A stretch of 64,000 nt of DNA from Sphagnum magellanicum (lineage: Eukaryota > Streptophyta > Sphagnopsida > Sphagnales > Sphagnaceae), in the NCBI GenBank assembly GCA_021904315.1, contig CM038913.1, forward strand, positions 371,958 to 435,957, given 5' to 3'. The translations under genes were made by a program, and so were the position numbers. Shown in pieces: positions 4,495 through 55,316 of the stretch (positions are counted from its first letter, which is position 1; every line of letters starts with the position of its first letter). The notes beneath the pieces were generated by a model. That model was given only the letters and a program-made list of their open reading frames with translations. It did not search any database and was not told where the DNA came from.

Positions 4495-4680
4495 TATCAT
4501 AATTTAAAACAAATATTAATATATCATGTGTATAAAAGTGAATAAACATTAAAGTTGCACAATATTATTTATGTATCATTTCTTGATATGTTGTAATGAT
4601 CTACATAAAAATAGTAAATTACAGATGTATTGAACATAAACATTATTAGTAACATATATTTTAGATTTTCCTTAATGAAC
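4495..4680. repeat. Partial unit of the 305-bp array
   Basis: It contains ATATCATGTGTATAAAAGTG, GAATAAACAT at 4540, a TATCATTTCTTGATATGTTG word and TGTATTGAACAT at about 4626, in the same order as in the units at 3081-3650. It is separated from them by the 430-bp duplication. Confidence 0.65.
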
Positions 4681-4862
4681 ATCATTTGCTTGAAATTTCA
4701 CATATTCACAATTGATTCTCTAATTGATTGTTTCCATAACATGATCACCCAAATTTATGAAACAAGCCAATTCGTGACAATGGTCCATCAATTGCTTCCA
4801 TTTCTTAGGTTCAACTTAAACTCAACTTACCACATGCTTTGGAATAGTTTCCAATAACACTT

Positions 4863-5649
4863 GTCTTGGGGTGGTACCATTAGGAACCACCTTGCCAAAA
4901 TCACATGAAAGTTGGACCCAATTTAAAAAATAAAATTCCATCTACTTATACATTGGTTTATTTGATTGGATTAGGTTGGCTATGTTTTCCCCACCTATGC
5001 ACACACTCGTGAAAAATAATGAACACCCAAAAACCTATAATATGCATTAACATTTTGATTCTTGAACTATTTTTTACCACTTTTGACCCAATTTTTGATT
5101 TTTTTCTTTTAAATGTCCTTACATTTACACATTAGATATTTTTTCTTGTTTATTTATTACATGCACAAGGGATGATCCAAACTAATAATTAGAACAACAA
5201 AAGGTGAAAATAATTATCATTTGTGTTCTTGACATCAATGGCCATTTAAGACTTCACAATTTTGACTTCAAAAATTCATAATAAAATTAAAATTTATTCA
5301 ATCAATTATTTATAAAAGACATGAATTAGGTTGACATTTGAAATATTAAAAAAAATTAACATCCAAAAAAATTCCCAAAAAATATATTCCTTTTGTGTTC
5401 ATAATAAAAAATCCTTTTTGTGACATTCCTGAAATTTTTTCCTTATGCATTCATTTTCCACATCAAAACACATTTTTTTGTAAATCTAAATAGAATTTTG
5501 AATTTTACATGACTTGGGTAACCTTTTGATAAAAAATTTGGAATGAAAAACTTTCTTTATGTGAGTCTTATGTTGTCCTGAAACTGAATGGGTTTCATAA
5601 ATTTGGGGTGTGACATTCTTGGTGGTAACACCCAAGGATAAGTTTGTCA
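4863..5649. mobile_element. Non-autonomous inverted-repeat DNA transposon, copy 1
   Basis: The left end, GGGGTGGTACCATTAGGAAC near 4867, is mirrored by the right end, TTGGTGGTAACACCCAAGGA near 5619. Both resemble the ends of the better element at 63118-63773. The inner right flank (AATGGGTTTCATAAATTTGGGGTGTGACATTC here) is also alignable between the two. No open frame long enough for a transposase is present, so it would depend on enzyme from elsewhere. Its ends are more diverged than those of copy 2. Confidence 0.6.
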
Positions 5650-7199: not shown

Positions 7200-7740
7200 G
7201 GACACATAACTATGAAAGGAATGTAGTTTTTCATGGAAAATAATGCGTTGTTTTTCAAAATAAGGTATAAATTTGATATGAGGATATTTTGAAGGACATA
7301 CTTAAAATATTTTTATAGATGAACATTTGGAATTGGAAATTTTGATGTGGAAGAATGCCAAGTACTTGCATTTTCATGAACTTATTGGGAAGGTGAAATA
7401 TTAATTATTTGAAGCATATATGTATGAAAGAAATGTATTTTTCGATATATCAATGTTTGGATATATATTGTGTGTGATGGTGATAAATAATAACATGTAC
7501 TTGAAATTTTTCTACAAAGATGAATGATAACTTCCTTGAAAGATTTGATAACATCATAGTTAGAATGATTGGATTAACTATATTTTTTCATAAGTACATT
7601 TCATTGGGATGGTGCACTATTATCAAATTCAAGCATATATGTATGGAAAAAATATATGTTGTTAAAAATGACATGTCCTTCACATTTTGTGGAACACATA
7701 TTTGATCTCAAATGTTTGGATAAAGTTTGGGAACTTGCTT
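7200..7740. repeat. Degenerate tandem repeat, period about 205-220 bp
   Basis: The word AAGCATATATGTATG occurs near 7412 and 7632. TACTTAAAATATTTTTATAGATGAA near 7298 resembles TACTTGAAATTTTTCTACAAAGATGAA near 7500. The units are strongly diverged. The 61-codon open frame at 7520-7705 lies inside and is not supported as a gene. Confidence 0.35.
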
Positions 7741-7934
7741 GATATGGGGAAGTGATACAACCCATCTTGAGAACCAATATATTATTTTATTATCTTCCTA
7801 TTAAATAATATTCAGATAATAAAACTTTAATTGAATTTTTATTTGCGCAATTCTGAGATTAAAACTCCCTTGGGTAGATAATGTAAGGTTTTTGCTTAGC
7901 ATGAATACAATAGAAGAAAAATAAGTATTTTTGA

Positions 7935-8170
7935 CTACTCTTTGTGACTAAATTTTAGTCGCAAGAGACATTTTGCAACTAAAATCCTTTTAATCGCCTA
8001 AAACAAGTCGCATGTGATAAATTAGTCGCAAATGACAAAGGGTATTGTATGAAAAAAAAGTCAACAAATACATTTCATCCTTTGACTCCATTTTATATGT
8101 ATTGTCACATGCGACTAAGATGCAACTATTTTGGTTACAATTGAAGGCAAATCATGTGTTGCCATGTGTT
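7935..8170. repeat. GCGACT / GTCGCA word repeat, second copy
   Basis: It contains AGTCGCAAGAG, CAAGTCGCATG and TTAGTCGCAAATGAC, the same vocabulary as 1065-1365 and 10441-10650. It is followed by a (TTTA)n/(TTA)n simple repeat at about 8180-8215. Confidence 0.45.
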
Positions 8171-8329
8171 TTAATATATGATTATTTATTTATTTATTTA
8201 TTATTATTATTATGAAATAATCTAAGACGTTCAATTCAAATACTTGGATGATTTTATATTATGACACGTGGCCCAATGTAAATACGCCACATGGCATTAA
8301 ATTTTTAAAAAATAAAAATAAAAATATTA

Positions 8330-8560
8330 AGTTGGTAGGTACCTAGGTAGGTACATAAATAGGTGCCTACAATCTTTACCTACCTACTTACCTACTTACC
8401 TACCTACTTACTTAGGTAAAAAAATAAGTAGGTAGGTTCTACTTTCCTTTGTTAAATACCTATTCATATAGGTAGGTACTTAGGTAGGTAAGTACATAGG
8501 TCGACCTAGATGAATAGGTCAAACTAGGTACCTACCTAGCTAGATACATAAATAGGTTGG
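8330..8560. repeat. (TAGG/CCTA)n repeat with self-complementary arms
   Basis: Runs of GTAGGTAGGTACCTAGG are followed by runs of TACCTACCTACTTACC and then GGTAGG again, so the DNA can fold on itself in several registers. The right flank runs into the block shared with 1741-1910, so this is part of the same dispersed family. Confidence 0.7.
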
Positions 8561-8589
8561 GGAGGTAAGTATTTTAGAGTTGTGCATTA

Positions 8590-8745
8590 TTTGTTTTTTT
8601 GTTTTGGGTTCAACCTTTTGATTAACTCATCCCATGTGCATAATGTTTTTAATGTGAAATTGGATGGGCATACCCTCTTTGTTTATATAGTGTTCAAAAT
8701 AGGAATGAAAAACAAACAATATGGGATAAATTTTGAAGTTGCAAC
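8590..8745. repeat. Composite dispersed repeat, copy 2 (right block)
   Basis: It carries GGGTTCAACCTTTTGATTAA, ACTCATCCCATGTGCA, TTTATATAGTGTTCAAAAT and AACAAACAATATGGGATAAA. These match, in order, blocks at 1744-1900 and 63780-63895. The copy has no inverted-repeat element at the place where copy 3 has one. Confidence 0.6.
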
Positions 8746-9769
8746 TTCCTTACAAACAAAGTTGCAAATCCAAAACTTTCTTCATGCCTTACTTTCTTAG
8801 TTTTTAGATTTTTAAACAATTCAAGTACTAGATAATTAGATAATCATTTAATTAATAATGATGAAATTTACATATATTTAAATTATAAACTATACACTAC
8901 AAATATTTAATATTTAGTATCAATTACTTAAATAAATAATAACTTCTTAATATTTAACAAACTAGCTATCTAGTTACTCACAAGTTATTAATACATAATT
9001 CATAAATAATAAAATATTTAAAAATATTTAATTACTTTTTAGAATCTGATTGAATTATATATAATAAAATTAATGTAAAAACTAATTTAATGACTATAAT
9101 TTAAAATTAAATATTTAAAATATTTATTTTAAAATTCTAAATAATGAATTAAAATTGTTATTAGAAAGTAAATTCTTACACGAATTTTTCAAAAATTATT
9201 ATTCAATTAATTACATTGTTTACTGTGATAAACATTTATTGTTGTAAAAATTACTATAAATCAAGTAATGTTTTTCTCTTGGTAATTATTAATTATAAAT
9301 ATAATAATTTGTTAAACATAACATTAATTTTCATAATTATTGTAAAATTACTATAAAATATTTATCATAGATGATTAATCACAGAATTTTTTAAGATGAT
9401 ATTATAATATAATAATTCCTGAAATTAAAATCAGTAAAATATTTATTTTAACTACATTATAATTTTTCCAAATTTTTAATTCAGGATTGAAGTTATGAAT
9501 TAAAGAGTGTGAATAATTATGTTCAATTTGAAAATAATTATGCACATATTAATTAATTTTTATCTGAAGTAATTACAATGATTTTAAAGTAATTTCACAT
9601 TAATTTAATTAATTGATTTCTTCTAATATAAAAATATAAATTACATAATATACAAATATATGTTATAACAATAATTATTTAGTGTCACTTAGATTTAATA
9701 AACATATTCATTTATAATTATTTATAATAGTGATTTATTATGGATAACACTAGTAGAAAAAAATCTTGA
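8746..9769. other. Extremely AT-rich DNA
   Basis: Almost only A and T with short homopolymers. No gene, RNA or ordered repeat is seen. Confidence 0.5.
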
Positions 9770-10360
9770 AACTGAATCAATAAGTTTTTGAATTAAAATA
9801 TAAATTTAAGATTCCAAAATAATAATTCAGAGTTCAAATATCAGTTTTTAAATCAAATAAGTTTTTTGAAGTTAAATAAAAATTTCAGAATTGAAATGTT
9901 AATTTTCAGATTCAAATAATAATATCAAAAATTAAAATTTCCATTTTAAGACTCAATTAATAATTTTCTGAATTGAAATATTAATTTTGAGAATCCAAAA
10001 TAATAATTTGGAACTCAAATTTCAACTTTCAAGTCAAATAATTTTTAAATTTTTAAATTTTAAACTTGAAAATTCAAATATCAAATTTGAAGTTCAAATA
10101 AAAGTATTTAAAATGAAGTTGCCGATTTTTAAACTCAATAAATTTTTAAAAATTGAAATAATGATTTTTAGATTCGAAAATAATAATTTAGAATTCAAAT
10201 GTTGGTTTTTTGATAAATTTTTTTTTTGTGAATTTAAATAACAATTTTCAGAATTGAAATGTTAATTTTCATATTCAAATAACAATATTCAAAATTGAAA
10301 TGTCCAGTTTTAAACTTAATTACTAATTTTCAGACTTGAAGTATTAATTTAAAGATTCAT
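9770..10360. repeat. Satellite-like tandem array, period about 181 bp
   Basis: An anchor reading GATTCC/GAATCC/GATTCG followed by AAAATAATAATT sits near 9811, 9992 and 10171, spacings of 181 and 180 bp. A fourth partial anchor lies near 10354. Each unit is built of shorter, roughly 20-bp motifs around TTTTCAGAATTGAAAT and TTCAAATAA. Units 1 and 3 look more alike than either does to unit 2, which hints at a dimeric higher-order unit of about 361 bp. An 84-codon open frame at 9987-10241 is a by-product of the repeat. Confidence 0.8.
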
Positions 10361-10365
10361 TATAT

Positions 10366-10388
10366 GAACTATATATATATATATATAA
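10366..10388. repeat. (TA)n simple repeat
   Basis: A run of alternating T and A directly follows the 181-bp array. Confidence 0.8.
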
Positions 10389-10440
10389 TACATACATTAA
10401 AATACACCCTTATGTCATTGTAGAATACCTTTAAGATGTA

Positions 10441-10650
10441 ACTAATTCGGTGACTATCGCGACTAATGGGACATATCAACCTAATAATGGATGAAAATAA
10501 ATGTAAAATTAATGTAATCAATAGGATGAAATTTCATCATAGTTGTGAAAATTACCAAAATAGTTGAAAGTTGGTCTTGTAGTTACAAATATTCACAAAT
10601 CTAGTTGCAAACAACTACAAGTCGCATGTAGTCGTAAATTGAATGGTTAC
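10441..10650. repeat. GTCGCATGTAGTCG word repeat, third copy
   Basis: Words CTAGTTGCAAACAACTAC, AAGTCGCATGTAGTCG and CGCGACTAATGG match the vocabulary of 1065-1365 and 7935-8170. Confidence 0.4.
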
Positions 10651-13433
10651 ATTTTGGCTGATTTCTATTAGTGAGATTTGGTGAAGTAAAAAATAACATT
10701 TATCATTTCGAGAGTTAACAAACACAATAGATGTTAATGGTAGAACGTAAAAACTAACAACACTTAAAGTTGACAATGGCGGTAAACTATGAACAGTTAA
10801 TAGTGTCATCAACAATAAATTAGTTATAGAACAAGGTAGATCTTGGTGTCGTTGAAAGGATTACTAGCACTAACATTTAAAGAGATAAAACCCTAAAATT
10901 ACATTTTTTAAGGACAATGAATGGCAAATTAACAAGATCAATTGATGTAAGGGTTGTTGTTGATGAATGAATATAATCATTCAATAGAAAGTAGATGCAT
11001 GACGACAAAAACGTGGAGGAAAGGTGGAAGGCGCATACGAGGAAAAGGAACAACTTCATGTGGAAAAATCCCAAGTAGAGGTGATGAGAAAGAGCCATTG
11101 GAGGAACAATAAGATTATTTACCATTAAAGAGATGCAAGAACTAGGTGGCATGGAAACATCAACGAGCTACTAAAACTTGCATTTGGAATATGAACCTTC
11201 TTTATGTTCTTGTTTGTGGTGAAATTTTTCTTTTTCATGTACATAAAAGGTGTTTTTAATTATGTAGGAAGTTGATTCTTCACATGTACAACTTGGAAAC
11301 CAAGAAGTGAACATCTCCAAACCCTATCTTATCATTTCATCTAAAAAAGTCGTGTAGAAACCTTTTTGGAAAAAAATTGTTATTAAGGTTTTGTGATGTA
11401 CATGTTCCCAAAACGAGCTCCTTTAGGGTTTTGTGATGTATAAATGAATGTGTTTTGCATTTTGTAGGGGGAGGCTTCCCCAAACCAAACACACACTAAT
11501 GAGGAGGTAAGTTTCTTCTTCCTTTAACCTTTATGTTTCTTTCTTGTTTACTTTCTTGAGGTTTTAAGAACTTTTCTTAAGCTTTCTTTAGGGTGTGGAA
11601 AACTTTTCTTTGAAGCTTTTGAAAGCTTTTCCCAAACTTTCAAAAGCACTTGGGGTCTCAAGCCTTAGGATTTTGTTTTTTTCCTCTCCTTAAGCAACCG
11701 GGGGCCTTGCACTCCCAATTTTCTTTTTGACAAAACAAGAAGCACATGGGGCTTGCAAGCATTGGGTTTCATTTCTTCAAATGTTCAAGAATCGGGGGCT
11801 CAAGGCCCTTGACTTTCTCCTTGCCCACGCAACAAACACCCTAGGTCTTGAAGCCTCGAGTTTTTTTCTTTATGATGATCAAGCTACTATACTTTATAAT
11901 GAATCTAAACACAATATCCTTGCATTGGTAGGCAAGGCCAACAAATGCAACAAAAAATGCATTATTATTAACTTGGCCTCCATGTTGTTGTGCCTTACTA
12001 GGGATGATCGATTGATAAATTAAAATTTTGATTTTGTGGAAAGTATGTTCCATTTGAATCAAAATATAAAATGACATTGCATACAACTTAAATTGAATTG
12101 GATTCAAAAATTTAAAACTAATTGAACTAGAAAAATTAATTCAAATACATTGAAATTTCAATGAGTTTTAATTTTAATTCAATTCAATAAATTATATTAA
12201 AACCAAATTTAATTCAGTTTTTAAAAATGGGATGCATGTTGGTGGAAAAGGTATTGAAAGTTTGTTGATGAACATGATGTTGAAAAAAACAATTTTGAAA
12301 AAGCACAAAGCCAATTTTTTGTTTTTTATGTTTCTTTACTTGAAAATAAGCTAAACATATTCCAATTTGGAATAGTTGAAATGACGACCTCTAGAATCAC
12401 AACTTATGAAATCTAAGGTTGTCCTGCCAAAATTAGGGTATTTAATAGGGTAACTTTAATGAATTGTCATCATTAAAATTAATTTATTTTAAATTTGCAT
12501 TATTCTATGGTATCAAATTGATATACGAATGAAATATTAATATATTTTCATTTGTTCTTTAAATTCTAAAATATTAGAAAAAAGTCTATGATCCTATAGG
12601 TTTTCCATGAAATCATTTCCATTTTCATTAATATAGATTCCATTTTTTAATTTATTAAAAAATTATCTATAATTTGTGAGACAGGTGGTCAACCTACAAT
12701 TCTAAAATCTTTAAACAAGTTGATACCCACCAAAGTGATATGCAACAATTTGTGATGTCAAAGATCATGTCAGACAACAATTTATGTTTACCTATGATAA
12801 GATGTTATGAATAGTTTTTGATCATGACGATGCCTTTTTGTGTTTTTTAATAATGTGATGAAAATTTTATGTTTATAATGTTTATTCATCACGATTTCAT
12901 GTTATGAAAATTTTGCACATGCTTCTATTTAGATGATTAGTTGAAAATTGTTTCAAATGTTTCAAATCTTCAATGTCATGGTAGGCAAATCACTAGTTGC
13001 AAAAATTAATACTTATTCGGGAAAAAAATTGGTTTTGCAATATATAATTTCATGCTAGTGAAATTCTAACTTACCACCCAATGATTTTGGGTTAATTTTT
13101 GCAATTTTGCAAAAAATATTTTCAAAAAAATTCTATAAAAAAATCTCACATTTAAAAAAAAATCACAAAAATTCACCATAAGTGCCTACAATATGAAAGG
13201 GTGATTAATATTTTATACTTTCAAATTTTGTATATTGCCATATTTGATTAAATATATTTATTGAATATCACCACTTGAGCAACATCACAAAATTGAAAAA
13301 AATAAAATTGTTATCACTTTTAAAAATAGTTTGTACCCTGAGCATTATCATTTAAAACGTATTTGCAAGTTCCATGAACCATCCCTTTCTTCTTCCATAA
13401 TGGTCAGCTTGATTTTTTCTTTTGTATTTTCAG
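10651..13433. other. Intergenic DNA without a supported gene
   Basis: Several open frames of 66-98 codons (for example at 10877-11152 on the minus strand and 11727-12023 on the plus strand) lack any known motif. Near 12080-12215 there is a low-complexity stretch made of AATTCAATT/AATTGAATT words. A short repeat at 11879-11941 is listed separately. Confidence 0.4.
11879..11941. repeat. Direct repeat shared with 14823-14885
   Basis: About 60 bp reading AAGCTACTATACT(T/C)TATAATG onward to GGTAGGCAAGGCC recur 2.94 kb downstream with only a few differences. The flanks do not match, so these are not obvious long terminal repeats. Confidence 0.7.
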
Positions 13434-13500
13434 GACACTCACTGCCCTGAATTTTGCATTGTACCTTTTCAAATGTACTGGACCTTCCACATTTTGGAAG
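13434..13500 (+). other. Isolated exon-like segment
   Basis: A pyrimidine-rich tract and CAG precede 67 bases that stay open in two frames and end at an ideal donor, AAG followed by GTAAGTTT. One frame reads DTHCPEFCIVPFQMYW and onward. No neighbouring exon of the same gene was found within several kb, so it may be a stranded exon or chance. Confidence 0.25.
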
Positions 13501-14822
13501 GTAAGTTTTCAAACTCATTCCTTTATTTTTTACTTATCTACATTTTGTTCCGTTTTAAAAAAAATTATCTGAATTTGTAAAAGGAAGGAGAAAAATAAGT
13601 CAGGCTGGCCTTTATGTAGGTGAAGGTCTGAAAAAAAGACAGTTCAAGATTTTTGACTCATTCCCTTGGCCTATTAGCTTAGGGTTGAAATTTCAAATCT
13701 GGAAGGGTCTATTTTCAGACCCTTCTCCTATACCTTTAATTCTAAGCCACGTTTGGCAAGGTATTAGAAAATGCAATTAGAAGAAGAAAAATGATGGCCT
13801 TGGTTTTGTATAATTGTCAATAGAAACATTTAATGTGGGCAAAAATCTGGTACAAAAATTGCCAATTCCTTATTGCAAACTAGTGAGTATTTGAGGATTT
13901 TGAAATGACTGTGATTCTTTGATTTTGAATTGTTAATGAGCTAGGAACTAGCGGTTACACCCAACTAACCATGGTTTGAACATGCGCCTAATTTGTCTAG
14001 GTTGGATAAATAGGTGACTTTCCCATCTGCCCAATATGTTTTAGTTTGTTCAGTTCTCACTTCCCATGTCCCCAAAATGTTCTGAACTGTTCGTTCTCAT
14101 GTTTGCACATTCCCCCATTCTCCTCATTTTGCCTGTTCACAGGTTCCCCACATTCCTCATGTTCCCATGTGAGAACATTGAAAGTTCCAAAACAATGGAA
14201 TGTACGTTCCCGATGTGGTCTTAACTACCATGTAAGTGCCATATAGGTGCCACATCATTGTCACATTTGTGTGGGAGGCATACATGTGGGTCCGTGTGAA
14301 CTTTTTATAAATAAGTGACCTTAAAAAGAACTCCACAACCCAAATGAGATTTTTGCACCCTAAGTTAGAGATCCACACCCCAAAAGCTACACTAAAACCC
14401 TACAGCCCAACACCCCAATCCCCAAACTTGAACCCGTGTTACCCCTGAAATCTCTACACCCCTCATAGCCACTTCGATTTGAATATACTCATAGCATAAT
14501 AATCTGTAAAGTTGACAAATGGTGTATTACCTAAACCATTCTCATACCTATTAGTATGTACAAACGATGTACAAAACAAGGGGTGTGTCACACTGTGGCC
14601 TTCCCTTCTACCTTAAAAAGTATCTTAAGGCAAAAGAAGAATTATGGAAACTCAAATATTTCACCACACAAAAAATATAATCTTCAAAAAATCCTCAAAA
14701 AAAAACCAAAATCCTTCAAGACATAATTCTATAACTAATCTCAAATTTCGATACAAACGAAAATATCATCTTTCAAAAATCCTCATATAAAAATAGACCT
14801 ATTACCTAGGGGCCACAATCCC
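13501..14822. other. Intergenic DNA with a GTTC-rich patch
   Basis: Between about 14045 and 14185 the words GTTC, CCCATGT and TTCCC recur, and TGTTCCCATGTGAGAACA forms a near-palindrome. The 66- and 73-codon frames over this patch are not supported. The rest shows nothing. Confidence 0.4.
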
Positions 14823-26634: not shown

Positions 26635-26805
26635 ACTCTTTTGTGGCTATTCAGGTGAAAGAGCAGCTTTGGAAATCCTAGTATTTACAGTACTGAGTGA
26701 GATTAGGGAGATCGTGAGCATGTCTCTATCTTTTGTGGTTGAAGCAGTCATGATGTTGCCAAGTAGAAGGGAGACCATATATACAGGTCCCTTACCTTCC
26801 AGGAT

Positions 26806-27576
26806 TCAGATGTCTTTGTAGGGAATAGCTTGGTGGATGTGTATGCAAAATGTGGGAGCATGGAGGATGCTTGGAGTTCAACAAAATGCCATCTCAAAAT
26901 GTAGTCACTTGGAACACCATGATATTTGGACATGTAAACTGTGAGCAATGGCAGAAGGGGCACTAGAACTATTTAAAGAATGAAACAGGAAGGTGTGCAA
27001 CCTAACTCTATTACTTTTGTTGGGGTGTTAAATGCATGTGCCAGCATAGTTGCACTTGAGGAGGGAAGGTGTGTTCATGAGGAGATCATAGAAAGTGAAT
27101 GGGATTCAGATGTCTTTGTGGTGAATAGCTTGGTTGACATGTATGCAAAATGTGGGAGCATGGAGGATGCTCCGAGAGTGCTAAATGAGATGTCATCATA
27201 GGATGTGGTCTCTTGAACCACCATGATTTTGGAACATGTGAAATGTGGGCAAGGGCAGAAGGCACTCGAACTATTTCAACAAATGCAACAGGAAGGTGTG
27301 TGACCAGATGCTGTCACTTTTGTGGGGGTGGCAAATTCATCTGCCAGTTTAGTTGCAGGGTGTGTGCCATATACTAAACTTCTGCAGCATGATGTTGAGG
27401 AAGAAGAAAAGGTACTTCATTTGCGTCACCATAGTAAGAAATCAGCTATTGCATTCAGGCTCATCAACAAATTTACACCACCATTGTTGAACACTGTTAT
27501 CAGATGCAGTAGCACTGAAAAAGTGGCCTTGGAGCCTCCCTGTAAATTGGATTTCCTGAACTCCTACTGTGTATGA
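26806..27576 (+). pseudogene. PPR-DYW editing-factor pseudogene
   Basis: PLS-type pentatricopeptide repeats are clear: SLVDVYAKCGSMEDAW, then after a frameshift FNKMPSQNVVTWNTMI, then GVQPNSITFVGVLNACAS, LVDMYAKCGSMEDA and KCGQGQKALELFQQMQQ. Stops interrupt the frame, including after EMSS, after DVVS and at 27301 after QQEGV. The last 84 codons read HDVEEEEKVLHLRHHSKK and onward, which is the start of a DYW cytidine-deaminase domain. Intact DYW factors are organelle RNA-editing enzymes with a zinc-binding H-x-E. Here HSE is HSK, and the rest of the domain (CxxC, DYW ending) is absent. The E/E+ region between repeats and DYW is also missing. A related fragment lies at 46551-47020. Confidence 0.85.
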
Positions 27577-28232
27577 ATTGGAGTTGTCAATAGTCAGTTT
27601 TTCAGGTTCCTAAGGCTTTGCAGCTCTACCGAGTTTGGTTTAATTGATCTGTTGAAGAACAAGAACTACTCTTCAAAGTTTCTTCGGAATTGAATCAGAG
27701 GCTTGATTATCAAAGAAAAACTTATGTTGGATAGCATCACTTCCTCTTAATTTTATCCAAAGAGGCTTTCAATTTGGTTAAGCTTGTCAATAGAGATGCT
27801 ATATCTGCAGTTAATGTAGTATGCATTTCAGAAAGTGTAGCTATATAATTCTTCCAGCACAAGAGATTTAGCCGTTTTCCAGTTGAATGTCTCGTAGACC
27901 CTAACACCCTTGGCTTACTTAGAATTTCAAGTTCCAAAATCTCTTGAAACATATGAGAAATTGTGTACCTCATTACACATTCTTGGAGGACCATAGGGTT
28001 TCTTGATGAGATTTCTTCCCAAGTCCATATTTGCATTGACGAAGTTGCCCTTAAGTTGGAAATCTGTAACTGAGTTCCCTTGACAATTGCATGTGACATT
28101 AAATGCTTTCTTACCATAAAGACTCATTGCCCAGCTTGCATCTCTTGAGCTGGTGAAACATACTGTGTCCTGGTGATGTATAATGTCAAATTTGTGGAAG
28201 AAGACTGAATTGGTGGTGTCTCTATGACATGA
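27577..28232. other. Flank of the maturase pseudogene
   Basis: The part from about 27930 is the 3' flank of a segmental duplication shared with 51310 onward. Minus-strand frames at 27737-28117 and 27927-28298 run through it and are not supported as genes. Confidence 0.45.
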
Positions 28233-29200
28233 ATTCCTCAACTGTGCACCCTTTGTCAACTCGTCCCTTCTCATTTTTATAAACAGAAGATCTGTCAATA
28301 ATTGGGATGGATTGGACTATTAGTAACAGATTTCTTCCCAAATGCTGTGATCTCTGCTTACCATCATGTGTTATGATCAAGTTCTTCCTATACTCCTTAA
28401 TTATCTGGCTTCAGCTTGACTTGTGCTTCTTGCAGAATGTATGAATGAGTGACCACCCGTAAGTGCTAGTTCACAATAGCCTTCACTTTCTGATAATTGT
28501 CACACCATGCATAAAATTCCAGAAGTCCTATACTCACCTTGTGATACCATGCTACAACATGATTATCTTCATGGCCTAACACAGAATCATTTGGCGTGGG
28601 TTGCTTCTTCCACTTGGTTATAAAACCCCATGACTCAAGAATTTCATAGATTTCAGCAACGAGAGCTTCAATCTGGATTGAAGCTTCCTGTCAGTATTGT
28701 GATGGAACTGTCAAGCCTCTTGGCCCTCCAAAGGCTTGAAGTCCTTCATAATTGGCAGAGTCTTCTGATTCTTCTGAATCTTCCAGATCTTCTTCTTGAA
28801 AAATCTTCAAACTCCTAGAAATCTGCATCTTCTTCTTGTCCAAACTCTAAATCTTCATCTCCAAACTCTTCGGCTTTGCCTTCACATGTATCAAAAACTT
28901 CCTCTTGCATCTTGACAATCCTGTGTGCCACAAATTCTAGCATTATGCTTATTCATCTCTTTTTCCCTCAGATTTAGGTAAGCCTCCTGTTGTAGAGGAA
29001 CTACTTTGGAGGCACAGGCCCACATTGATGCATACTTCTCTGGACCTGCCCTGTTTATGTAAATTGAGGTCATCTCAAACCAGCACAACAGTTTCTCAAC
29101 ACCTACACATTCCTCCACAAACAAGATCTCTATTCTGTATGAGTGTTCACCAAGGCAGAGAACTTCTAAAATACCTAGAGAAGAAGAAAATCACAGGGTC
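27930..29200. repeat. Segmental duplication, copy A
   Basis: The whole block, including about 300 bases beyond the maturase 3' end and about 60 bases upstream of the exon (CCTAGAGAAGAAGAAAA), has a counterpart in the same orientation at about 51310-52640. Confidence 0.75.
28233..29150 (-). pseudogene. Nuclear group II intron maturase, domain X region, dead copy
   Basis: Minus-strand DNA here aligns along its whole length with the maturase copy at 51650-52640, at close to 90 percent in the best stretches by eye. Lesions: a 25-base deletion near 28358, one extra base near 28455, loss of the final stop (AGG AAT TCA), and stops in the acidic region. The N-terminal part (VEKLLCWFEM, INRAGPEK) is in one open frame and keeps an ancestral reading that the other copy has lost. 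Nuclear maturases help splice group II introns in mitochondria or plastids; this copy cannot make the domain. Confidence 0.8.
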
Positions 29201-30585: not shown

Positions 30586-31416
30586 TCATGGGTAACATTG
30601 GTGGCCATTCACCAAAACTGTTGGCTTAGGACGCATCAAAACATTGCATTTTTCCCCTACTGAACATTTACGGAAATCTTGTGTGTAGGTTGTGTGGCCT
30701 ACAAATTTCTCCACTTTTGGTCCCCATCTAATCTCTTTCACATTCCTTACACTATCTTGGACTCTCCACTTCCTATAATGATCAGAATATGTTGTATTTT
30801 CAGCAAATTTGCTATATGGTATTATTCGAGATGCCGTGTCTAGAGGCTTTGAAGGCATGGATTCCAACTTATGAGGATGGTGGGTTTCACAAAGCGAATA
30901 GGTATGTGGCCAATGTTCGGATTTTCTCCATGGTTGGACAGGCCTTGATTTATCCCAGTAATCATATGTGTAGGATGTTTTGCCTTCCAAAGCCATTGGG
31001 TTTGAATGAAACCCAGGTGGCTTAAACCCAGATCTAGGGTTTGCAGGCCAGCTCAAGTATGAATCATCATATGTTGTTCTTCCTTTAAAAGTGCAAGAAT
31101 ATGGGTCCAAATTGGCCTGCTTTTTAGCCTTTGCTGGGTATATAGGCTTTTCATTATATGAACCTGAATATTCAGTATGTGTTGGTTTGTTGTATTGTGC
31201 CCCAGTTGGAACACAACCAAGAAGGGAAATCCCATCTTTTGTGATCCGATCTGCATTGGATTGTTTAGGGACGTACTCAGCAATGTACTCAGATGGTCCT
31301 TGGAATTTCTTGTCTGTTTCTTTTATGTTGAGGCTCTGGTATTTTGTTGTTGAGGTTGTCTCTGCACATTTGTGTTTCCCACAAGAACATGTTGTACATA
31401 TGCATGGTTTTGCTGC
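30586..31416 (-). CDS. SAXO-type (FAM154) axonemal microtubule-stabilising protein, start codon not found
   Basis: A 276-codon open body begins after a CAG acceptor at 31417-31419. It opens with KPCICTTCSCGKHKC, matching the Cys-rich N-terminus of SAXO proteins (human SAXO1 starts with a C-x-C-x-x-C-x-C-G-x-H-x-C motif). Then come Mn-type modules: TRITKDG-like linkers and GRTTYDDSYLSW, GKTSYTYDYWDK, ENTTYSDHYRKW and GHTTYTQDFRKC, each followed by Pro-rich spacers. SAXO proteins bind and stabilise doublet microtubules of cilia and centrioles. In plants this fits only lineages with motile sperm. The frame upstream of the Cys motif runs to a TGA without any ATG, so the start must be in an upstream exon or is lost. 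A tandem array abuts the 5' side. Function is inferred from motifs; expression in sperm-forming organs is expected. Confidence 0.85.
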   Translation of the reverse strand, partial: AAKPCICTTCSCGKHKCAETTSTTKYQSLNIKETDKKFQGPSEYIAEYVPKQSNADRITKDGISLLGCVPTGAQYNKPTHTEYSGSYNEKPIYPAKAKKQANLDPYSCTFKGRTTYDDSYLSWPANPRSGFKPPGFHSNPMALEGKTSYTYDYWDKSRPVQPWRKSEHWPHTYSLCETHHPHKLESMPSKPLDTASRIIPYSKFAENTTYSDHYRKWRVQDSVRNVKEIRWGPKVEKFVGHTTYTQDFRKCSVGEKCNVLMRPKPTVLVNGHQCYP

Positions 31417-31499
31417 CTGCCATGTTTCAAAACTCTTAATTGTTTTTAGACTCCAAGATAAAAACACCGAACCCAACCCACCCTTCACCCATAAATTTC

Positions 31500-32050
31500 A
31501 TGGGGGAGACCTAAGCTCCTTATAATACAATTCCCAAGCCAAAATCATCAAGACAAAATACTTTTGAAGTTTCCAAAATAATCCTTTAGTCTCTTTTGGT
31601 GTTTCCTAGGGTGGTGAAATGTTTTCCTAACCAAATTGGCAGCTCAAAATATTTGAATCTCCAAAAAACCCTAAAAAACAAGGATACAAGACCTAGCCTC
31701 TTTTTATGTCCTAGGACTATGAAATTGTTTCCCGAACCAAAATCATCAGCTCAAAATATTTTTGTGATTTTCAAAAGAACACCCTCAGGAAAAAGGATAC
31801 AACACCTTGTCTCCTTTGGTATTTGTTGAATTGTTTCCCTAACCGAGATTATCAGCGCAAAATATTTTTGAAGTTTCCAAAAGCCCCTCACACACAAGGA
31901 TGACGACCTAATCTATTTTGGTGTTTCTTAGGATTGTGGAATTGTTTCCCTAACGAAAATCATCAACTCAAACTAATTTTTAAATTTCCATAAAACCAAG
32001 GATACAATACCTAGTCTCTTTTGGTTTTACCTAGGATTGTAAAATATTTC
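31500..32050. repeat. Minisatellite, period about 107 bp, at the 5' side of the SAXO gene
   Basis: The word AGCTCAAAAT (or close variants) falls at about 31550, 31641, 31748, 31853 and 31965. Each unit also has GTCTCTTTTGGTGTTTCCTA, TTGTTTCCCTAACC and AAGTTTCCA in the same order. Four to five diverged units lie where the promoter or first exon of the minus-strand gene should be. Confidence 0.8.
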
Positions 32051-35000
32051 ATACTTTATTATTATTTTTGTCTAGAGGATACAAAACATTACTACCATTT
32101 GTATTGTGAACCCATAATGGGACCCAGATGCTATGCAATCAATTGCTGAGCACCATATGAGAATTTCAAGTAGTCTCATTAACAAATGAATCCATTATTG
32201 TTAGGTTAGTCTGTGTATTGATAATTCGGATTTTCTTGAAATTGACTCATTCCCTTCTTCTTTGATATCATGTTTCTTTGGGTTTCCACCTAGCCTACTA
32301 GTCTCTTTAACCGACAAGAATCTAATTCCCAGAATAAAGAAATGAAAGGAAAGAAGCTTACAGCAACATCAGCACTGCAATCTGTTGCCATTGCTCAAAT
32401 TAAAATTTACTTGCAGAGGTATGGATTAACTCCCCCAAATAAATTGAGTCTGATATTTTTTTGGGAGTTTATGTTGAATTCTCCAATTCAAGATTGGTAT
32501 GCAAGTTGCAAAGACCATAATTATTCACAGAATTGAAATAAAATGATGACGACTTTTGTTGGTTTAGTCTTGCACTTGCTTGGTTACATGAATTCAAAAA
32601 TCATGCCAACTTATGCATATATACTCTATACAGGTAGAGGATAGTCAAACATGTCATGACTTTTGGAAAAAACCAAATGCATTGTGATCAACATGAACTA
32701 TGGGGGAATTAGGTCTTCTATAATGATTGAATTGGCTTAATGACAATTCCAAATTAGCTATAATAGGAGCTAAAGTACCAACTCCTAGTACACTCACTAG
32801 AGTATGCTTGGTAGAGAAGAGGAGTGTTTTGTAGCAATGCCTTTTGGTGTTTGAACACTAGACATGGGGTAATCAAATCTCATAATCAAATCTCCCAATT
32901 TTGACTCTCTCATTTGTCCTTTCATATCACATCTCCTTGGATCTTCATCAATGAATAGTCCGTTGCAATTTCAATGTCATTGGTGAAGTATAAAGCATGC
33001 TTCAATACATACTTAAACTGAATATATTTTGATGAAACGCTTTTGGGAGTAAATTTGTTATGGGATTGTAATATGTGGGAAAATTTGTGGACTGAGGTTG
33101 TTGTCGGTAGTAGGTACCTAGAGTTTTTAAATATTTATTCCAAGGTCCTTTCATTGCAATTTATTGTAATTCTCATGTAATGTGTAATTTTTGTTTATGC
33201 TAATTCTAGCAATTTATTTTGATTGACATTAATGACACATGCCTAATATGGTGGGTTCATGACATATAATAGATAGATATCTAATTGTATGTGAAATGAA
33301 ACGTATTAGATTTTATAAATGCAATGTGATTTTGAATCAACAATATGTTGACCATATTTCGCCAAACTATGTGTAGTCAGCAAGGTAGAATTTATTAGTT
33401 GTATGCTGTTATAACAATGTTCATAGTTTAGACTATGATGAATGTTTGATTTGTATTGAATATGTTTGTGAAAATTTTAGCTCCATGTGTTGGAATATTG
33501 AAACAAATTGGAGTAGGTGTGTGAGTGGATATTAGTGCAAGTATAATTCAATTCAATTTTAGGTACATTTTGTGAACTACAAGCAACAAGTTTATGGAGA
33601 TTATCTTGCATGAAGTCTAGAGACAAAATGAGGTATTATTATTAAGCATTTGACATAGAAAATTCATTGCATGTTGTGGTTCCATGCTTATTTTGAATGA
33701 GTCTGAAACATTTCTGGAGGATGTTTTATAAAAAGCATTGGACTTCTAAAAGCTCAAGCACCCAAAGCTTCTTTTACATACATTCATTGTTGGTCACTTT
33801 TGAAAAACATGCCAAATTGGTTGATGTAAGAATTGCTTCAAAGAAAAGCCTTCCCACAAGGTCCAAAATCTAGTGACTAATATAATGGAGGAATTTGAGG
33901 AATGAGAAATTCTGGAATCCTTGAGTGATGGGGGTGAAAAACACTTGCAAGGTGATAAAGTTGCAAAGGAAGATTAGAAGACAAAGGTGTTGAAGGATTA
34001 TGTTGAGCACATGCAAGTGAAAGTGATCATGAACATGGTGGTAATGACTTTGGAGAAGGCAAAGATTTTTGAGGACTAGTTAGCCTTAACAATCCTCACC
34101 ATATGTAAGATTGCTCTGAGTTTGGTAGAATCATGAGAGTAACTGCAATTGTGTCAATAAGAGGAACTCACAAAATTGTGGTGTCACCTGGTTGTTGGCA
34201 TGAATTTGGTTTTTGTAGTTAACAATGTTGACACATGTTTGCCATCATCAACCAATTTCAAGATGACAATTCTAGATCCCAATTTTGGTGCAAACACATG
34301 TCCTATTCTTTAATTCCAACGTTTATGTATGTCCTATGCAAAAATCAACTTTGAATTCAATGCCATGACACAAGGGTGGATTAAGTGATGAGATTTGTAA
34401 AAAAATTGTCAATATTTTGTCTCAATATCATTGGTTCTTTGAATTTTGGAGTTCTTTTATCTTGTTTGTGGGGGCTGCAAATGTCCATTTCAAGTCATGG
34501 CCATGGGCAGTTGATTGATGTTTCACTTCATTTTCTTTGTCTCATGTTGTCTAAAATTTAAGGTTCAATGATGAGAATCATGAAAGGATAATCATTTTAT
34601 GTGGATGTTTTCTATGTGCAAAGACATAATATGTGAGCTCTTTATGTGCAAGGTTTTCTTTCTTTTCATTGTGTGAAATTTTTTATGTGATCCTCTTTGT
34701 GTGCAAAACTCTATGCATGATTTTTTTGGCATCAACACAAAATGATCATTTTAAGAACAACCCAAAATTGATGAAAACAACCCTAAATTCAATCAGGCTT
34801 GATCCTTAGACACATTAAAAAAAGTTGTAGAACATTGTTGTAGGAAGTGCCCATTTTTGGGAGGGGGTTTTTGTAGGTATGACCTATGACTGACAATTGT
34901 GACTTCTTTGTCACAAGGGGCCCACCCTTCCCCCACCCCAAACAAATGGGATTTTCCATATCTCAACCAAGTTCCCCTCTCATTTTTTTGTCCCACTCCA

Positions 35001-44986: not shown

Positions 44987-46550
44987 TGTACCTCCTAGAG
45001 TATTTGATATTGCTTGCAAAAGTTATTTTACTAATTCTCATGGATCGTTATTCTATCTACAGTCAGACCTCCATTCACTGCATGATTTGATTTCACTGTG
45101 ATGGATCTTTTGTCAACATTGTGATATCATGATCACATGAATGGCTCTGTGACTTCCTGAGTGGCACTTGTGCTTGCATTTCTTCTCATTGAAATACACC
45201 AATGATGAAATGGAGGGAACAGAAGGTAGATGAATAAGGAAATTACAGCCCAGATGTAATAGTGGGTATTTATTGTGATTATTGCTCTATGTCACACATT
45301 TTGCCACAAGTGCAAATCCACCACAACATGATTTATAGAAACAAAGGTTAAAATTGTAGCATGCTAGGTGCAAGCAACAATGCATCATTTTAGTCTTTAA
45401 ATAATTTATATTTTTTTGTGATTTTAGGAATTGCAATTGCAACCTAGCTTTTGATCATCAGACCCTAATGTCTTCACAAGATATCTACTTTTGGTGGTTT
45501 CTGAAGAGGATTTGTGGTATCCAGGAGCATAATTAGAATTTGGTTCATTATCACGAGGTGACCTTGTAATAATTACACAATCACTTGTTGGCATGGCTCA
45601 TCTCCAATGACTTGCGAATAATGTTTGGGCTGCTGGTTTGATGGAAAGTTCTTTTAATGCATTGTCTTCAAAAAACACATATCATGGTTTGTTCACTCAA
45701 ACTTGGTTCCATCAGTGGTCTTCACATACCAGTCAAAGATGCATAGAATAAAAAACTTTGGGGCGATTTTAAGTGTCCAGAAGGTTTCATAAGATATGAA
45801 GATGGTGTAAATACAAAGATTGCAGATAAGAAAAGAAGTTGCAGTTCAATCATGTGCATAGATTCTGTAACAAATGTTGGAGGTGAATCATTTTGCAATT
45901 CTGAGTGACAAGTATGTGTGAGAAAACCATCAATATGCCATAAGGCGCAGACATGTAACTGAGCAATCAATCAATGCTTAGAATCTTCTGAAACTTCAAT
46001 CAAATAACTCAAAAAATTTTGAGGTTGCACAAAATGTTGTTAGGAATATTCTTCCAACTATATGCACAATTATTCTTGTGTAAGGAATTTTGCCAAGTCT
46101 ACTTACAACAAGCTATTTTTTGCTCAACTTGTTTGGGCTCAACTTAGTTGTGACCATAACTTCGGGCTCATGACTAAGGCTGGGGCAGGCCAAGGGAAAA
46201 GAGTTGAGAAGGAAGCCGAGTTGTCCCAAGACTCAAACACACTCTCACAAATATTTCAAATTTCCACAGCCCATACCCATTTAAAATTCCAAAATATCCT
46301 TCTTTGAGGTTAAGACAAACAACTCTGCATGTTTAAAAATTTACAAATCCAAGAACTTGTGCCGCTCACACCAGAAGTATTTGGGCAGTTTTCATGTTCA
46401 TCACTGAACCTTGGAAAGACATGAAAATGCAATACTCAAAAATGTTACTAAGATTTTTCAGGGTATCAGGGAACCTCAATAACTATGAAACAACCCCATA
46501 GAAAATAAATGAACCAGCCTCTCTGCAAAAGAAGATCCCAAGCACTTTGA
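44987..46550. other. 3' flank of the kinase gene and intergenic DNA
   Basis: No supported exon on either strand. Frames at 45722-45970 (-) and 46062-46307 (+) have no motif. Confidence 0.45.
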
Positions 46551-47020
46551 ACGATCTCCTCATGAACACACCTGCCCTCCTCGAGCGCTACCATGCTCGC
46601 ACATGCCTTTAGCACCCCCACAAAAGTAACAGCATTTGGTCACACACCTTCCTGTTGCATTTGCTGAAATAGTTCTAGTGCCTTCTGCCCTTGACCGCAT
46701 CTCACATGTCTGAATATCATGGTGGTCCAAGTGACCACATCTTGACATGGGATCTTGTCGTACACTCTCCGAGCATCCTTTATGCTCCTACATTTGGCCT
46801 ACATGTGAACAAAGCTATACCCCAGAAAGACACCCGCCTCACAACCACTTTGAATTATCTGTTGACGAGTCTGCCTGCCCTCTTGAAGTGCTCCTAAACT
46901 AGCGCATGCATTGAGCACCGGAACAAAAGAAAAGCTGTCAAGACTCATGCCTTTTTGTTGCATTTCTTGGAAAAGCTTGAATTGTCTTCTCATGTTGTCC
47001 AGCTTTAACATATCTAGCAA
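46551..47020 (-). pseudogene. PPR (PLS-type) pseudogene fragment
   Basis: On the minus strand one continuous frame reads KLFQEMQQKGMSLDS, VLNACASLGALQEGR, IIQSGCEAGVFLGYSFVHM, stop, AKCRSIKDARRVYDKIP, DVVTWTTMIFRHVRCGQG, QKALELFQQMQQEGV, stop, PNAVTFVGVLKACASM and ALEEGRCVHEEI. These are P, L and S repeats of an organelle RNA-editing PPR factor. The two in-frame stops (TAG after FVHM and TGA after QQEGV at 46642-46640) kill it. The TGA stands at the same codon as in the fragment at 26806-27576. No targeting peptide, E or DYW domain is attached. Confidence 0.85.
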
Positions 47021-50000: not shown

Positions 50001-51309
50001 CAAATGCACACATCCTAAACCTTAGGAGCTAGAGCAACCAGAATGGTCATTCCAGCCAAGCAGTGGCCATGCCTTGCACTCCACAAAACAACCTGCTGCC
50101 TGAAAGGGATATAGTGGCACTAAGTCAGGAACCTAACCAAGGCCTCAGTCAAATTTTTGACCTTATGGAGCCTTGCAATTTAAGTGGATCAATATTTGCA
50201 CAGAACCACAACCTACTGTTATCCAATTGGGCCCAAATTTCGTAAGAAGGTGACTACTGCCCTTATCACTACCTAAAATCTCCTTGAAAGAAATGAAAAA
50301 CCTAACAAACAAACAAATTCCTACAGAAACATATACTGTGATGAGTGGCATGAGTTGAAATCCAACTGGTGTGCAGCTCTTATCATCATATTTCTGATCC
50401 TAATGTAAGAATGGCCACTTCCAGCAGTGTGAACCCTCAGCACAAGTCAAAAGAGCTGAATAAATAGAATCTTAACATCATGGGAGCCATGATTGGATAG
50501 GTACCCTAAGAGTTGCCAACATAGTGCAAGGCCCAAGAACCAAATTGTCTTGAAATTTCACAGGGTGTTGACAATTGATGTATTCATACAATACCATCTA
50601 GAAGCAGGCCAGAGAAGCAGTCTATGTAGAAGTTTTGGGTACAAACCTAGCTGGTCTGCAAGCATTAGTACAGTCTTCAAGGAGAGCTTCTGGCTGCAGA
50701 TGTTGAAGAGATGTTTGAGACTCAGTTGCAATAAATCAAGCATCAGAACATTGTAGTCCCTCAATGCGAAACCATCTGATATTTGCAATCCCAGCTGCAC
50801 AAAGAAAAATAGTCATGTTCCAGGAATCCAGTGGTGCAGCCAAAAAGGGGCACAAACCAGGTAAGCACAGATTCAGTGACTCCTTACTTCCCTCCCTGAA
50901 CAATGCTATACAGCTTCAATTCATATAGCAACTGCAGATGCCTAATCTTGACACTCTCCTGCACAGCAGGGGATTAGCTTTCAAAGAAACACATTATCAG
51001 CCATCACAATGCCCCTTGCCTTACAAAGTGATACTTCCATGAGAATGCAATCAATTAACAACCAGCCTTCATGAAAGCTTCCCATTTTGGGAGGTAATTC
51101 AAATGAAAGCTGGGACAAATGTCGTGACATTTTCCAATTACATCAACACACAAGGAGCAAAGTCTACATACCAGCTTAATGCCAACTTCCTCATTGGTTT
51201 GAACACTAGTCCATACAGTTGACTGTGCGCAACACCCCAAAATGTTGTTGGCATGGAAGCAGGTGATGCTTTCTGCTATCAGAGACCCTCAAAGCTACTT
51301 AACTAAACT
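47021..51309. other. Intergenic DNA with no supported gene
   Basis: Higher GC than the outer arms, with many open frames of 60-95 codons on both strands (for example 47435-47692 minus, 49620-49904 plus, 50493-50756 plus). None shows a known motif or coherent splice pattern. A (CTG)n run lies near 47250. Old gene remnants too diverged to recognise are possible. Confidence 0.4.
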
Positions 51310-52640
51310 TGCTACTTATAATTTTAGGTGCCAAAATCTCTTGAAAACATATGAGAAATTATACACTCAAATTGCGCACTCTTGGAGGCTCCAAAGATAT
51401 TGTTTCTCAATGAGGTGTTCTTCCCAAATCCAGATTTGCATCAACAAAGTTCCCTTCAGTGAAAGTACATGTAGAAATCTGTAACTGAGTCCTGTTGACA
51501 GATGCACCCAAGCTTAAATGCATGCTTCCTGCGAGAACTCATTGCCCAACTTGCACCTCATGACTTGTAAAACATACTGTGTCTTGGTGATACATAGGCA
51601 GCGATCAAATTTATCAAAAAAGACTGAACTGGGTGGCATTGCTACAACACTAATTCCTCAACTTTGCACCCTTTGGCAATCTGTCCCTTCTCATTTTTGT
51701 AAACAGGAGATCTATCAGTAGCTCAGGACGGATTGGACTATTAGTAACAGATTTCTTCCCAAATGCTTTGATCTCTGCTATACTAAGAAAGCCTGCCAAC
51801 CGCTTACCATCATGGGTTACAACCAAGTTCTTCCCATACTGCTTAATTATCTGGCTTGAGCTTGACTTGTGCTTCTTGGAAAGTGTATGGATGAGTGACC
51901 ACCGTAAGTGGTAGTTCACAATAGCCTTCACTTTCTGATAGTTGTCACACCATGCATAAAATTCCAGAAGTCCTATACTCACCTTGTGATACCATGCTAC
52001 AATGTGATGATCTTCGTGGCCTAACACAGAATCATTTGGCGTGGGTCGCTTCTTCCTCTTGGTGATAAAACCCCTTGACTCAAGAATTTCATAGATTTCA
52101 GCAACAGGAGCTTCAATCTGGATTGTGGCTTCTTGTCGGGAAGGTGATGGAACTGTCAAACCACTTGGCCTTCCAAAGGTTTCAAGCCTTTCATCATCAT
52201 CAGAGTCTTCTGAATCTTCTGAATCATCAGAATCTTCTTCTTGAAAATCTTCAAACTCCTTGAAATCTGCAGCTTCTTCTTCTCCAAACTCTTCTTCTTC
52301 ATCATCTCCAAACTCTTCAGCTTTATCCTCATGTGTATCAAAAGCTTCCTCTTGCATCTTGATAATCCCCTGTGTGCCACCAATTCTACCATTATCATTA
52401 TTCATCTCCTCCTCCCTCAGATTTTGGTAAGCCTCCCGTGGTGGAGGAACTGCTTTGGAGGCACGGGCCCATGTTGATGCACACTTCACTGGACCTGCCC
52501 TGTTCATGTAAATTCCAATCATCTCAAACATAACACAAAAGTTCCTCAATGCCCACTCATTCCTTGGCAAACAACACCTCTATTCTGTATGAATAGAGTC
52601 ACCAAGGCAGAGAACTTCTAGAAAAACCTAGAGAAGAAGA
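51310..52640. repeat. Segmental duplication, copy B
   Basis: Counterpart of 27930-29200 in the same orientation. The shared block starts about 340 bases beyond the maturase stop and ends in CCTAGAGAAGAAGAAAACCACAG, after which the two sequences diverge. Confidence 0.75.
51650..52531 (-). CDS. Group II intron maturase domain X protein (nuclear maturase type), truncated
   Basis: A 293-codon frame from the first ATG (52531). After a short conserved start (GIYMNRAGPVKCAS) comes a very acidic low-complexity region of about 75 residues, then VAEIYEILESRGFI, then domain X: HIVAWYHKVSIGLLEFYAWC, IVNYHLRWSLIHTLSKKHKS and IIKQYGKNLVV. Domain X binds intron RNA in maturases; plant nuclear maturases (nMATs) are imported into organelles to help group II splicing. 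A reverse-transcriptase-like part should precede domain X but is absent upstream, where a different small gene begins at 53216. Against copy A, the sequence just upstream has a TGG-to-TGA stop and one extra base. So this is a truncated copy whose open frame has survived; whether it is translated is unknown. Confidence 0.65.
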   Translation of the reverse strand: MFEMIGIYMNRAGPVKCASTWARASKAVPPPREAYQNLREEEMNNDNGRIGGTQGIIKMQEEAFDTHEDKAEEFGDDEEEEFGEEEAADFKEFEDFQEEDSDDSEDSEDSDDDERLETFGRPSGLTVPSPSRQEATIQIEAPVAEIYEILESRGFITKRKKRPTPNDSVLGHEDHHIVAWYHKVSIGLLEFYAWCDNYQKVKAIVNYHLRWSLIHTLSKKHKSSSSQIIKQYGKNLVVTHDGKRLAGFLSIAEIKAFGKKSVTNSPIRPELLIDLLFTKMRRDRLPKGAKLRN

Positions 52641-53193
52641 AAACCACAGTGTCCATAGTTGCACAACAGACCAACTTGACAGACCAAGACATATCTTTTC
52701 CCATTCCACAAATGCCTGTAAGTGCAATCAGGTTACCTTAGAGAACAATTTCTTGAAACAAACATCTAGAAAATGGCAGAGAAATCTCTGCCACAACAAT
52801 TTGAATTAAAAATGACAGACCATAAGTGCAGTCATGACCTTATGAGAGTCAATCACAAAGTCTCAGACCATCACCTTCATCCAGAAAAGCAGTGACAAGT
52901 TGCAATGAGTGACTTCATCAGCTCACAACAGAGGATATAAATAAGAATATGATAATCCACCAAAAACTCAGGCAAAGTTTTATACAAAAATCTGCATCCT
53001 GAGTTTCTGCCACATTCCCAGTAGTGGCAGGAAAGACTCAATCATGATGTTGGCTATAACTCAATTTCTTGAAACAAACAACCAAAACTCATTGCAGCAA
53101 GTCGGAGATGTGCTAACAAGATGATGTGAAGACAAAGAGTCTCATAAAGCAGTTGAATTTGAATTTGGCAATTCTGAAAATGTGACAGTTTTG
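52641..53193. other. Spacer between maturase copy and small mitochondrial-type gene
   Basis: No supported exon. It is probably the 3' flank of the minus-strand gene at 53216-53880. Confidence 0.45.
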
Positions 53194-54195: not shown

Positions 54196-55316
54196 ATGGC
54201 GGCATCTTTGGCTCCTGCTTTTGCATCGTTTTCCTTGTCGTTACCCCCCGCAGCAGCAGGAAGAGTAGCAGCTGGAGGCGTTTCGTTCAGTTCTTCTTCT
54301 TTTGGTCAAGTATCGGGGCTAGTCTGTGTGGAGCGGAAGGTGGCTGTGCTTCCTCCTCTTGCTTTTTCTGTGCGTTCCAATGGTGGCTTTATCCCCGCTG
54401 AGCATCGCTGGATGCACAAGGGCATCGAGAACAAAGGAGATGTAAGAAGAATTCTATTCTTCTCCCGTTTGTGTGTTTTGATTTGTATGTTTTTGCACCC
54501 TCGGCGCATTGCCAGCAGTTGTCGCGGGACATCGAGTCCTGACTCCCCGTTCCTGTCTTGCTCGTTTTCGGAATTCTTTTTTTTCCCTATCTCTGTCTCT
54601 TTCTCTGTTGTGTGTGTGTCTCTTTCGCTCTTGTTTTGTGATTCTTTTCCCCGTGCCAAGTTATTGAATGCGGGGAGTTGGATGTCATGACGACGGTGGT
54701 GGTTGTGGTACGATGTGTGGAACAGAACCTATTACCCGAAAGCTGCAGACAATGAGAATGCGAAGAAGCAGTGGTACATTGTGGATGCTTCTGACAAATG
54801 TCTTGGTCGCCTGGCGTCAACAGTGGCTATCCACATCCGAGGTAAACACTTGCTCTCTTACACTCCCTCCACTGACATGGAAGCCTGTGTTATCATTGTA
54901 TGTTTCTATATTCTGTCACCATGACTCTAGCACTCTTGTTTCTTTTCTACAACCACAGCTGTGGGCATTAGCATTGCTAACAGATTTTTGGCCAAAGCTT
55001 TCCAAACTAAGCAAAGGGCACTGCAAGTGAATAAGTATATGATGTGCCTTGAACACATTCTGATGCATATCTGTTTCCCTGTGGAAATTCTGACCTTGAT
55101 GAAATGGCACTTGGTTTGAGCATGGTTGTTTTTGACTTTGGCAATGTGTGAAGATCGATCATGCAGGTGAATGCTGAGAAAGTGGCAGTTACAAGCAAGA
55201 AAAGGTCACAGAAGCCTGCACATCTGAAAGTGTACAAGGGTGGGAACCATCCCTGTGTAGCTCAGACTCCTGAACCCTTGCCCATTAAAGATAAAAGAAT
55301 CAACTTAGTGCAGTAA
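54196..55316 (+). CDS. RPL13: Plastid ribosomal protein L13 (uL13c), nuclear-encoded, with a core deletion
   Basis: Exon 1 (54196-54441) encodes a Ser/Ala-rich plastid transit peptide and AEHRWMHKGIENKGD. Exon 2 (about 54712-54897) encodes VWNRTYYPKAAD, WYIVDASDKCLGRLAST, HIRGKHLLSYTPSTDM and CVII. Exon 3 (55167-55316) encodes VNAEKVAVTSKKRSQK, then HLKVYKGGNHPC and PLPIKDKRINLVQ with a TAA. The order matches L13, a plastid 50S subunit protein. About 45 residues between KKR-QK and HLKVYKG (normally the RRHSGRPGG...GRLGR core) are absent, with the frame kept. Exon 2 also lacks an AG acceptor in the right frame: a TGA lies 24 bases before VWNRT with no AG between. It is either a decayed copy of a gene that works elsewhere or a shortened variant. 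Confidence 0.8.

Follow-up and report, generated by a model that had tools for sequence, protein, structure and literature searches.

A probable short SAXO gene with a cysteine motif and five Mn-like modules in a green-plant genomic window

Results

Gene model

The window analysed here, a stretch of 64,000 nucleotides (64 kb), carries on its minus strand an open exon with a cysteine-rich SAXO motif 1 and five Mn-like modules, two pairs of which are spaced by 33-34 residues. The exon lies at 30586..31416 and has 276 open codons; in the gene model described below it is exon 2 and encodes residues 11-286 followed by the stop. The SAXO-like frame in which it lies extends from stop to stop over 30586-31497 and has 303 codons, whereas the longest frame had 236 codons when 40 copies of the 43 kb around it were generated by an order-2 Markov model. 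Since the SAXO-like frame has no methionine upstream of the cysteine block, 30586-31416 covers just part of the gene, and position 31416 is a possible splice acceptor, with ..ACATGGCAG before the junction and GCAGCAAAA after it, rather than a start codon.

The scan for exon 1 allowed one intron, six donor types and a distance of 3 kb, and it returned 11 ATG-to-donor combinations together with six open acceptors between 31482 and 31412. A GTAAG donor is found in a single one of these combinations, which corresponds to a mini-exon predicted at 32362..32391 (minus strand) that starts with ATG, would encode MATDCSADVA and ends in phase 0 at the donor GTAAGC. The mini-exon ATGGCAACAGATTGCAGTGCTGATGTTGCT, followed by GTAAGC, fuses in phase 0 to ..GGCAG followed by GCAGCAAAA, and the resulting model of 286 residues starts with MATDCSADVAAAKPCICTTCSCGKHKC. 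The proposed intron 1 occupies 31417..32361 on the minus strand (945 bases, GT-AG, predicted splice sites). Four nested options for exon 1 share the donor GTGAGT at 32798, which is of about equal quality, and would take another acceptor. The mini-exon is thus a plausible candidate for exon 1, one of several options, and the SAXO family reading is independent of which one is chosen. Within the proposed intron there are degenerate repeats at 31587-31981, with offsets of ~107 and 212 bases and copies that are 74-78% identical. AlphaFold2 applied to exon 2 without relatives gave a mean pLDDT of 35.9, and the structure was not usable.

Cysteine motif 1

Motif 1, CICTTCSCGKHKC, covers residues 15-27 (31366..31404, minus strand) and was located by pattern and by alignment to PDB chains. 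Across all six translated frames of the window, the pattern CxCxxCxCGxHxC occurs a single time, at this site, which confirms the Cys-rich opening described in an earlier reading of the sequence alone (hereafter the sequence-only reading). All five cysteines are in register and GKHKC is present. The core of the motif is present, though not every letter of it: 9 of the 15 positions of the expression printed in Dacheux 2012 match by a by-eye count.

When the 29 residues around the motif were compared to the PDB, five chains were listed, and ranks 2-4 were SAXO/STOP chains: 9e78_1U (E 0.023), 9e2g_3E (E 0.026) and 8ou0_D (E 0.14). Rank 1 was a zinc-finger chain (E 0.014) pieced from five stretches of less than 3 bits each, and rank 5 was the unrelated 3plc_A (E 1.4). 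A metal-binding, metallothionein-like cysteine block was also considered as an explanation of this region; it was dropped because Mn-like modules come after the block and because the block aligns to SAXO/STOP chains.

Mn-like modules

In order to score modules, we used a matrix derived from 14 modules of other proteins, namely 11 of bovine SAXO1 and 3 of 9e78_1U, with background frequencies that also counted the window protein. Five Mn-like modules were found in the frame, all on the minus strand: FQGPSEYIAEY at 31273..31305 (score 7.5, the weakest of the five and 14th of the 67,378 window 11-mers), FKGRTTYDDSY at 31057..31089 (score 17.5, 2nd in the window), LEGKTSYTYDY at 30958..30990 (score 12.8, 3rd), FAENTTYSDHY at 30775..30807 (score 11.3, 7th) and FVGHTTYTQDF at 30673..30705 (score 19.8, 1st). 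The sequence-only reading had counted four or more copies of T-T-Y-x-x-x-Y/F. The number is borne out by the five Mn-like modules, but the strict form TTYxxxY/F holds for just three of them (TTYDDSY, TTYSDHY and TTYTQDF), the other two being TSYTYDY and SEYIAEY. A further match, KCAETTSTTKY (score 3.6), overlaps motif 1 and was left out of the count.

At a threshold of 7 the protein has 5 modules versus a mean of 0.11 in shuffles, and none of 2000 shuffles of the protein reached five. When the 67,378 stop-free 11-mers of all six frames are ranked, the three leading ones belong to this frame, as do four among the leading seven and five among the leading fourteen. Since matrix scores up to 14.2 and 13.6 are reached by 11-mers elsewhere in the window, the weaker modules count only within the series; singly, the two weaker ones score no higher than scattered window matches.

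The modules start at residues 48, 120, 153, 214 and 248. The spacings of 33 (120 to 153) and 34 (214 to 248) equal the 33-34 residues that separate the 11 bovine SAXO1 modules, and the remaining gaps of 72 and 61 correspond roughly to two periods each. A degenerate copy, KPTHTEYSGSY at residue 87 (31156..31188, minus strand), may fill the first gap; it was picked by eye and by its spacing, and its matrix score of -1.3 leaves it unsupported.

Fit to the SAXO family

In the description of Dacheux 2012 (PMC3280300), a SAXO protein carries motif 1 and a run of Mn-like modules, the last of which contains Cys-Pro; it is also rich in proline and has a basic pI. Here the module series is present after motif 1, in the order of that description (PMC3280300). 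The pI is 9.1, compared to 8.25-9.05 reported for three SAXOs, and proline is 8.4%, below the reported 11.6-20% (PMC3280300). Cys-Pro is missing from the last module: KCS and KCN come after the core of that module and there is no CP. A TbSAXO mutant without Cys-Pro is reported to have still bound and stabilised microtubules (PMC3280300). The identity with SAXO proposed by the sequence-only reading thus finds both defining motifs in family order and lacks a full-length profile match; as far as sequence motifs go, kinship to SAXO is supported by these two motifs and their order.

Profile and structure-database searches

Neither the 303-residue frame nor the 286-residue model, searched as a whole protein, matched any Pfam-A family; for the protein taken whole, this is literally the outcome that the sequence-only reading had named as refuting its SAXO identity. 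The SAXO profile to which the sequence-only reading had looked was reached by residues 1-97, for which PF05217 (SAXO1-2) was the first of two listed families with E 0.011 and 15.3 bits, under the cut-off of 26.5. The 67-residue inner piece had no match in Pfam and the 66-residue inner piece had just an unrelated one (E 0.12), so PF05217 was reached, under the cut-off, by one of five window-derived queries. As controls, a 114-residue fragment of 9e78_1U (STOP/DMIP1) scored 20.8 bits against PF05217 (E 0.00023), also under the cut-off, and human SAXO1 scored 1164.8 bits. The whole 9e78_1U chain might pass the cut-off, the score given here being that of the fragment alone. The fragment control partly excuses the Pfam miss because the fragment fails the cut-off, yet it also outscores the window protein.

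Searched against the PDB, the 286-residue model had a STOP chain as the first of 8 matches with E 0.19, a value that an unrelated chain also reached, and none of the three matches of the 303-residue frame was a SAXO. A search for close relatives by pattern and tblastn gave 2 pattern matches in viral contigs and 67 in prokaryote genomes, and in both sets 0 were confirmed. The profile evidence for SAXO is weakly positive at best, and the SAXO case rests on the motifs.

The missing PF05217 match of the whole protein would also suit an Mn-motif microtubule inner protein outside SAXO1/2, of the FAP363, TEX26 or TEX45/SAXO5 type, with a look-alike cysteine start, as Mn repeats are reported to occur in several ciliary proteins (PMC10973386). 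We regard this as quite improbable, given that the family paper describes motif 1 as SAXO-specific and as missing from mouse Map6-1 and Map6d1 (PMC3280300), and that five of five cysteines and GKHKC are found here. The absence of a full-length match from both Pfam and the PDB could also be read as a sign of accidental motifs in a chance open frame, a reading that is close to untenable for a frame exceeding the longest one of all 40 Markov copies and carrying a number of modules that no shuffle attained.

Surroundings of the gene

The window has A+T-rich flanks at 2001-14000 and 58001-64000, where 2 kb bins go down to 19% G+C compared to 33-46% in the gene-bearing middle, and tandem arrays lie in an A+T-rich flank at 2796-3607 and 9777-10358. 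A dispersed repeat of 250-320 bases, about 79-80% identical between copies, is present at 26802-27357 and 46535-46932, where the copies at 26.8/27.1 kb are direct and the one at 46.6 kb is inverted; it is possibly a small mobile element. Protein-kinase exons are found elsewhere in the 64 kb window.

A 1.3 kb stretch is present twice, at 27909-29200 and 51308-52653, with 82% identity between the copies. The second contains an open frame of 309 codons at 51650-52579 (minus strand) with an Intron_maturas2 domain (PF01348, E 1.1e-15). The maturase-like copy at 27909-29200, 1.4 kb from the 3' end of the SAXO gene, appears broken and has a 129-codon frame without Pfam match. A gene copy for the chloroplast ribosomal protein uL13c lies at 54200-55320 on the plus strand; the best 5 of its 56 listed PDB matches (E up to 1e-5) were four chloroplastic L13 and one uL13c, which supports a chloroplast-bearing host. 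Together with the protein-kinase exons and the maturase-domain frame, the copy fits a plant. When its pieces are joined they give 106 residues, of which 1-74 match chloroplast L13; the conserved part beyond KKRSQK is apparently missing, so that this copy may be truncated.

With the uL13c copy and the maturase-like copy at 27909-29200 looking truncated or broken, one may ask whether the SAXO-like gene is a pseudogene or other relic, left in a plant that has ceased to need SAXO. We consider this very improbable for a gene in which 276 codons are open and which retains the motif, the modules and workable splice sites.

Discussion

Comparison to known proteins

The sequence-only reading had described the plant protein as shorter than animal SAXO1, with fewer modules. 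This is correct relative to mammalian SAXO1 (477 residues in chain 8ou0_D; 12 modules in mouse, PMC3280300); it is not specific to plants. The short size is no plant peculiarity because the protist SAXO/STOP proteins have 266 residues and TbSAXO has six modules (PMC3280300). The window protein is in the size class of protist SAXOs. It resembles TbSAXO, as described in the family paper, in the cysteine motif at the start and the basic pI, with five modules compared to six. 9e78_1U (DMIP1, STOP family) and 9e2g_3E (STOP axonemal protein) have 266 residues each versus 286 here and also have the cysteine motif at the start; in PMC7617938 the name DMIP1 belongs to trypanosomatids, and the word SAXO is not used in the available text of that paper. 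Unlike the protist SAXO/STOP proteins, to which its overall similarity is weak, the window protein has no Cys-Pro in its last module and less proline.

Mammalian SAXO1 (8ou0_D) has motif 1 in common with the window protein, as well as T/S..F/Y modules spaced by 33-34 residues. It differs in that the bovine protein has eleven modules, which also trained the matrix, compared to five here, and in that the window protein lacks a full-length PF05217 match. By description, Toxoplasma SPM1 and Chlamydomonas FAP363 follow the same module logic of one short helix per tubulin dimer, and SPM1 is on cortical, not flagellar, microtubules (PMC8144581). Within the green lineage, a supporting-information legend of the 2012 family paper (PMC3280300) lists SAXO1 and SAXO2 of Physcomitrella patens as well as FAP257 of Chlamydomonas. 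These are presumably direct relatives of the window protein, with orthology assumed.

Proposed role

We propose that the gene very probably encodes a short SAXO of a green plant, a luminal microtubule stabiliser. Because the axonemes of land plants are those of sperm, the expected site would be the spermatozoid flagellum. By extension from the SAXO family, the window protein probably lines the microtubules of swimming sperm, with luminal binding, stabilisation and a sperm location all following from family membership. Its chain would run in extended form over the luminal face of the microtubule wall, and each Mn-like module would form a short helix at the interface of alpha- and beta-tubulin, with one module per tubulin dimer, that is every 8 nm or about 33 residues. 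The modules would in this way hold protofilaments together. This is modelled on Mn motifs that are reported to recur with an 8 nm period at the intradimer interface (PMC9564825, PMC8144581) and are described as luminal short helices, in chains that follow protofilaments and stabilise them (PMC9564825, PMC8144581, PMC12228683).

The protein could instead serve non-axonemal microtubules, for example those of the spline, a microtubule band of plant sperm. Toxoplasma SPM1 is termed an orthologue of SAXO1/2 (PMC10973386) and is described as lining cortical singlets (PMC8144581), and a microtubular spline is reported in moss sperm (PMC8128824). We nevertheless consider such a role unlikely: TbSAXO is reported to be axonemal (PMC3280300), SAXO1 is reported along human sperm axonemes (PMC9564825) and the sequence of the window protein has no pointer to the spline. 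A specific form of this idea, decidedly unlikely in our assessment, is that plant SAXO lines the inner wall of the microtubules of the spline, which follows the coiled nucleus of the sperm, either in place of those of the axoneme or as well as them. If true, a spline-lining plant SAXO would be the plant counterpart of Toxoplasma SPM1.

For the flagellar SAXO that we favour, the sequence-only reading had proposed that the gene marks a plant with swimming sperm. Many flagellar structural genes are reported as lost in Gnetum, conifers and angiosperms, in an account that as far as available does not mention SAXO (PMC9023351); swimming sperm are reported there for non-seed land plants and for cycads and Ginkgo (the latter with fewer). 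The family paper gives Cryptosporidium as one non-flagellated SAXO owner (PMC3280300). Taking the gene as a mark of a plant with swimming sperm may thus be called reasonable.

Conclusions

Among the literature matches listed, none dealt with what SAXO does in plant sperm, which is weak evidence of absence. Plant SAXO has been known since 2012, as listed for Physcomitrella and Chlamydomonas (PMC3280300), and the gene in the window is a further example. It contributes a further gene model for plant SAXO, whose candidate exon 1 lies beyond 30586-31416, and offers a short protein that would be easily tested in the sperm of seedless plants.
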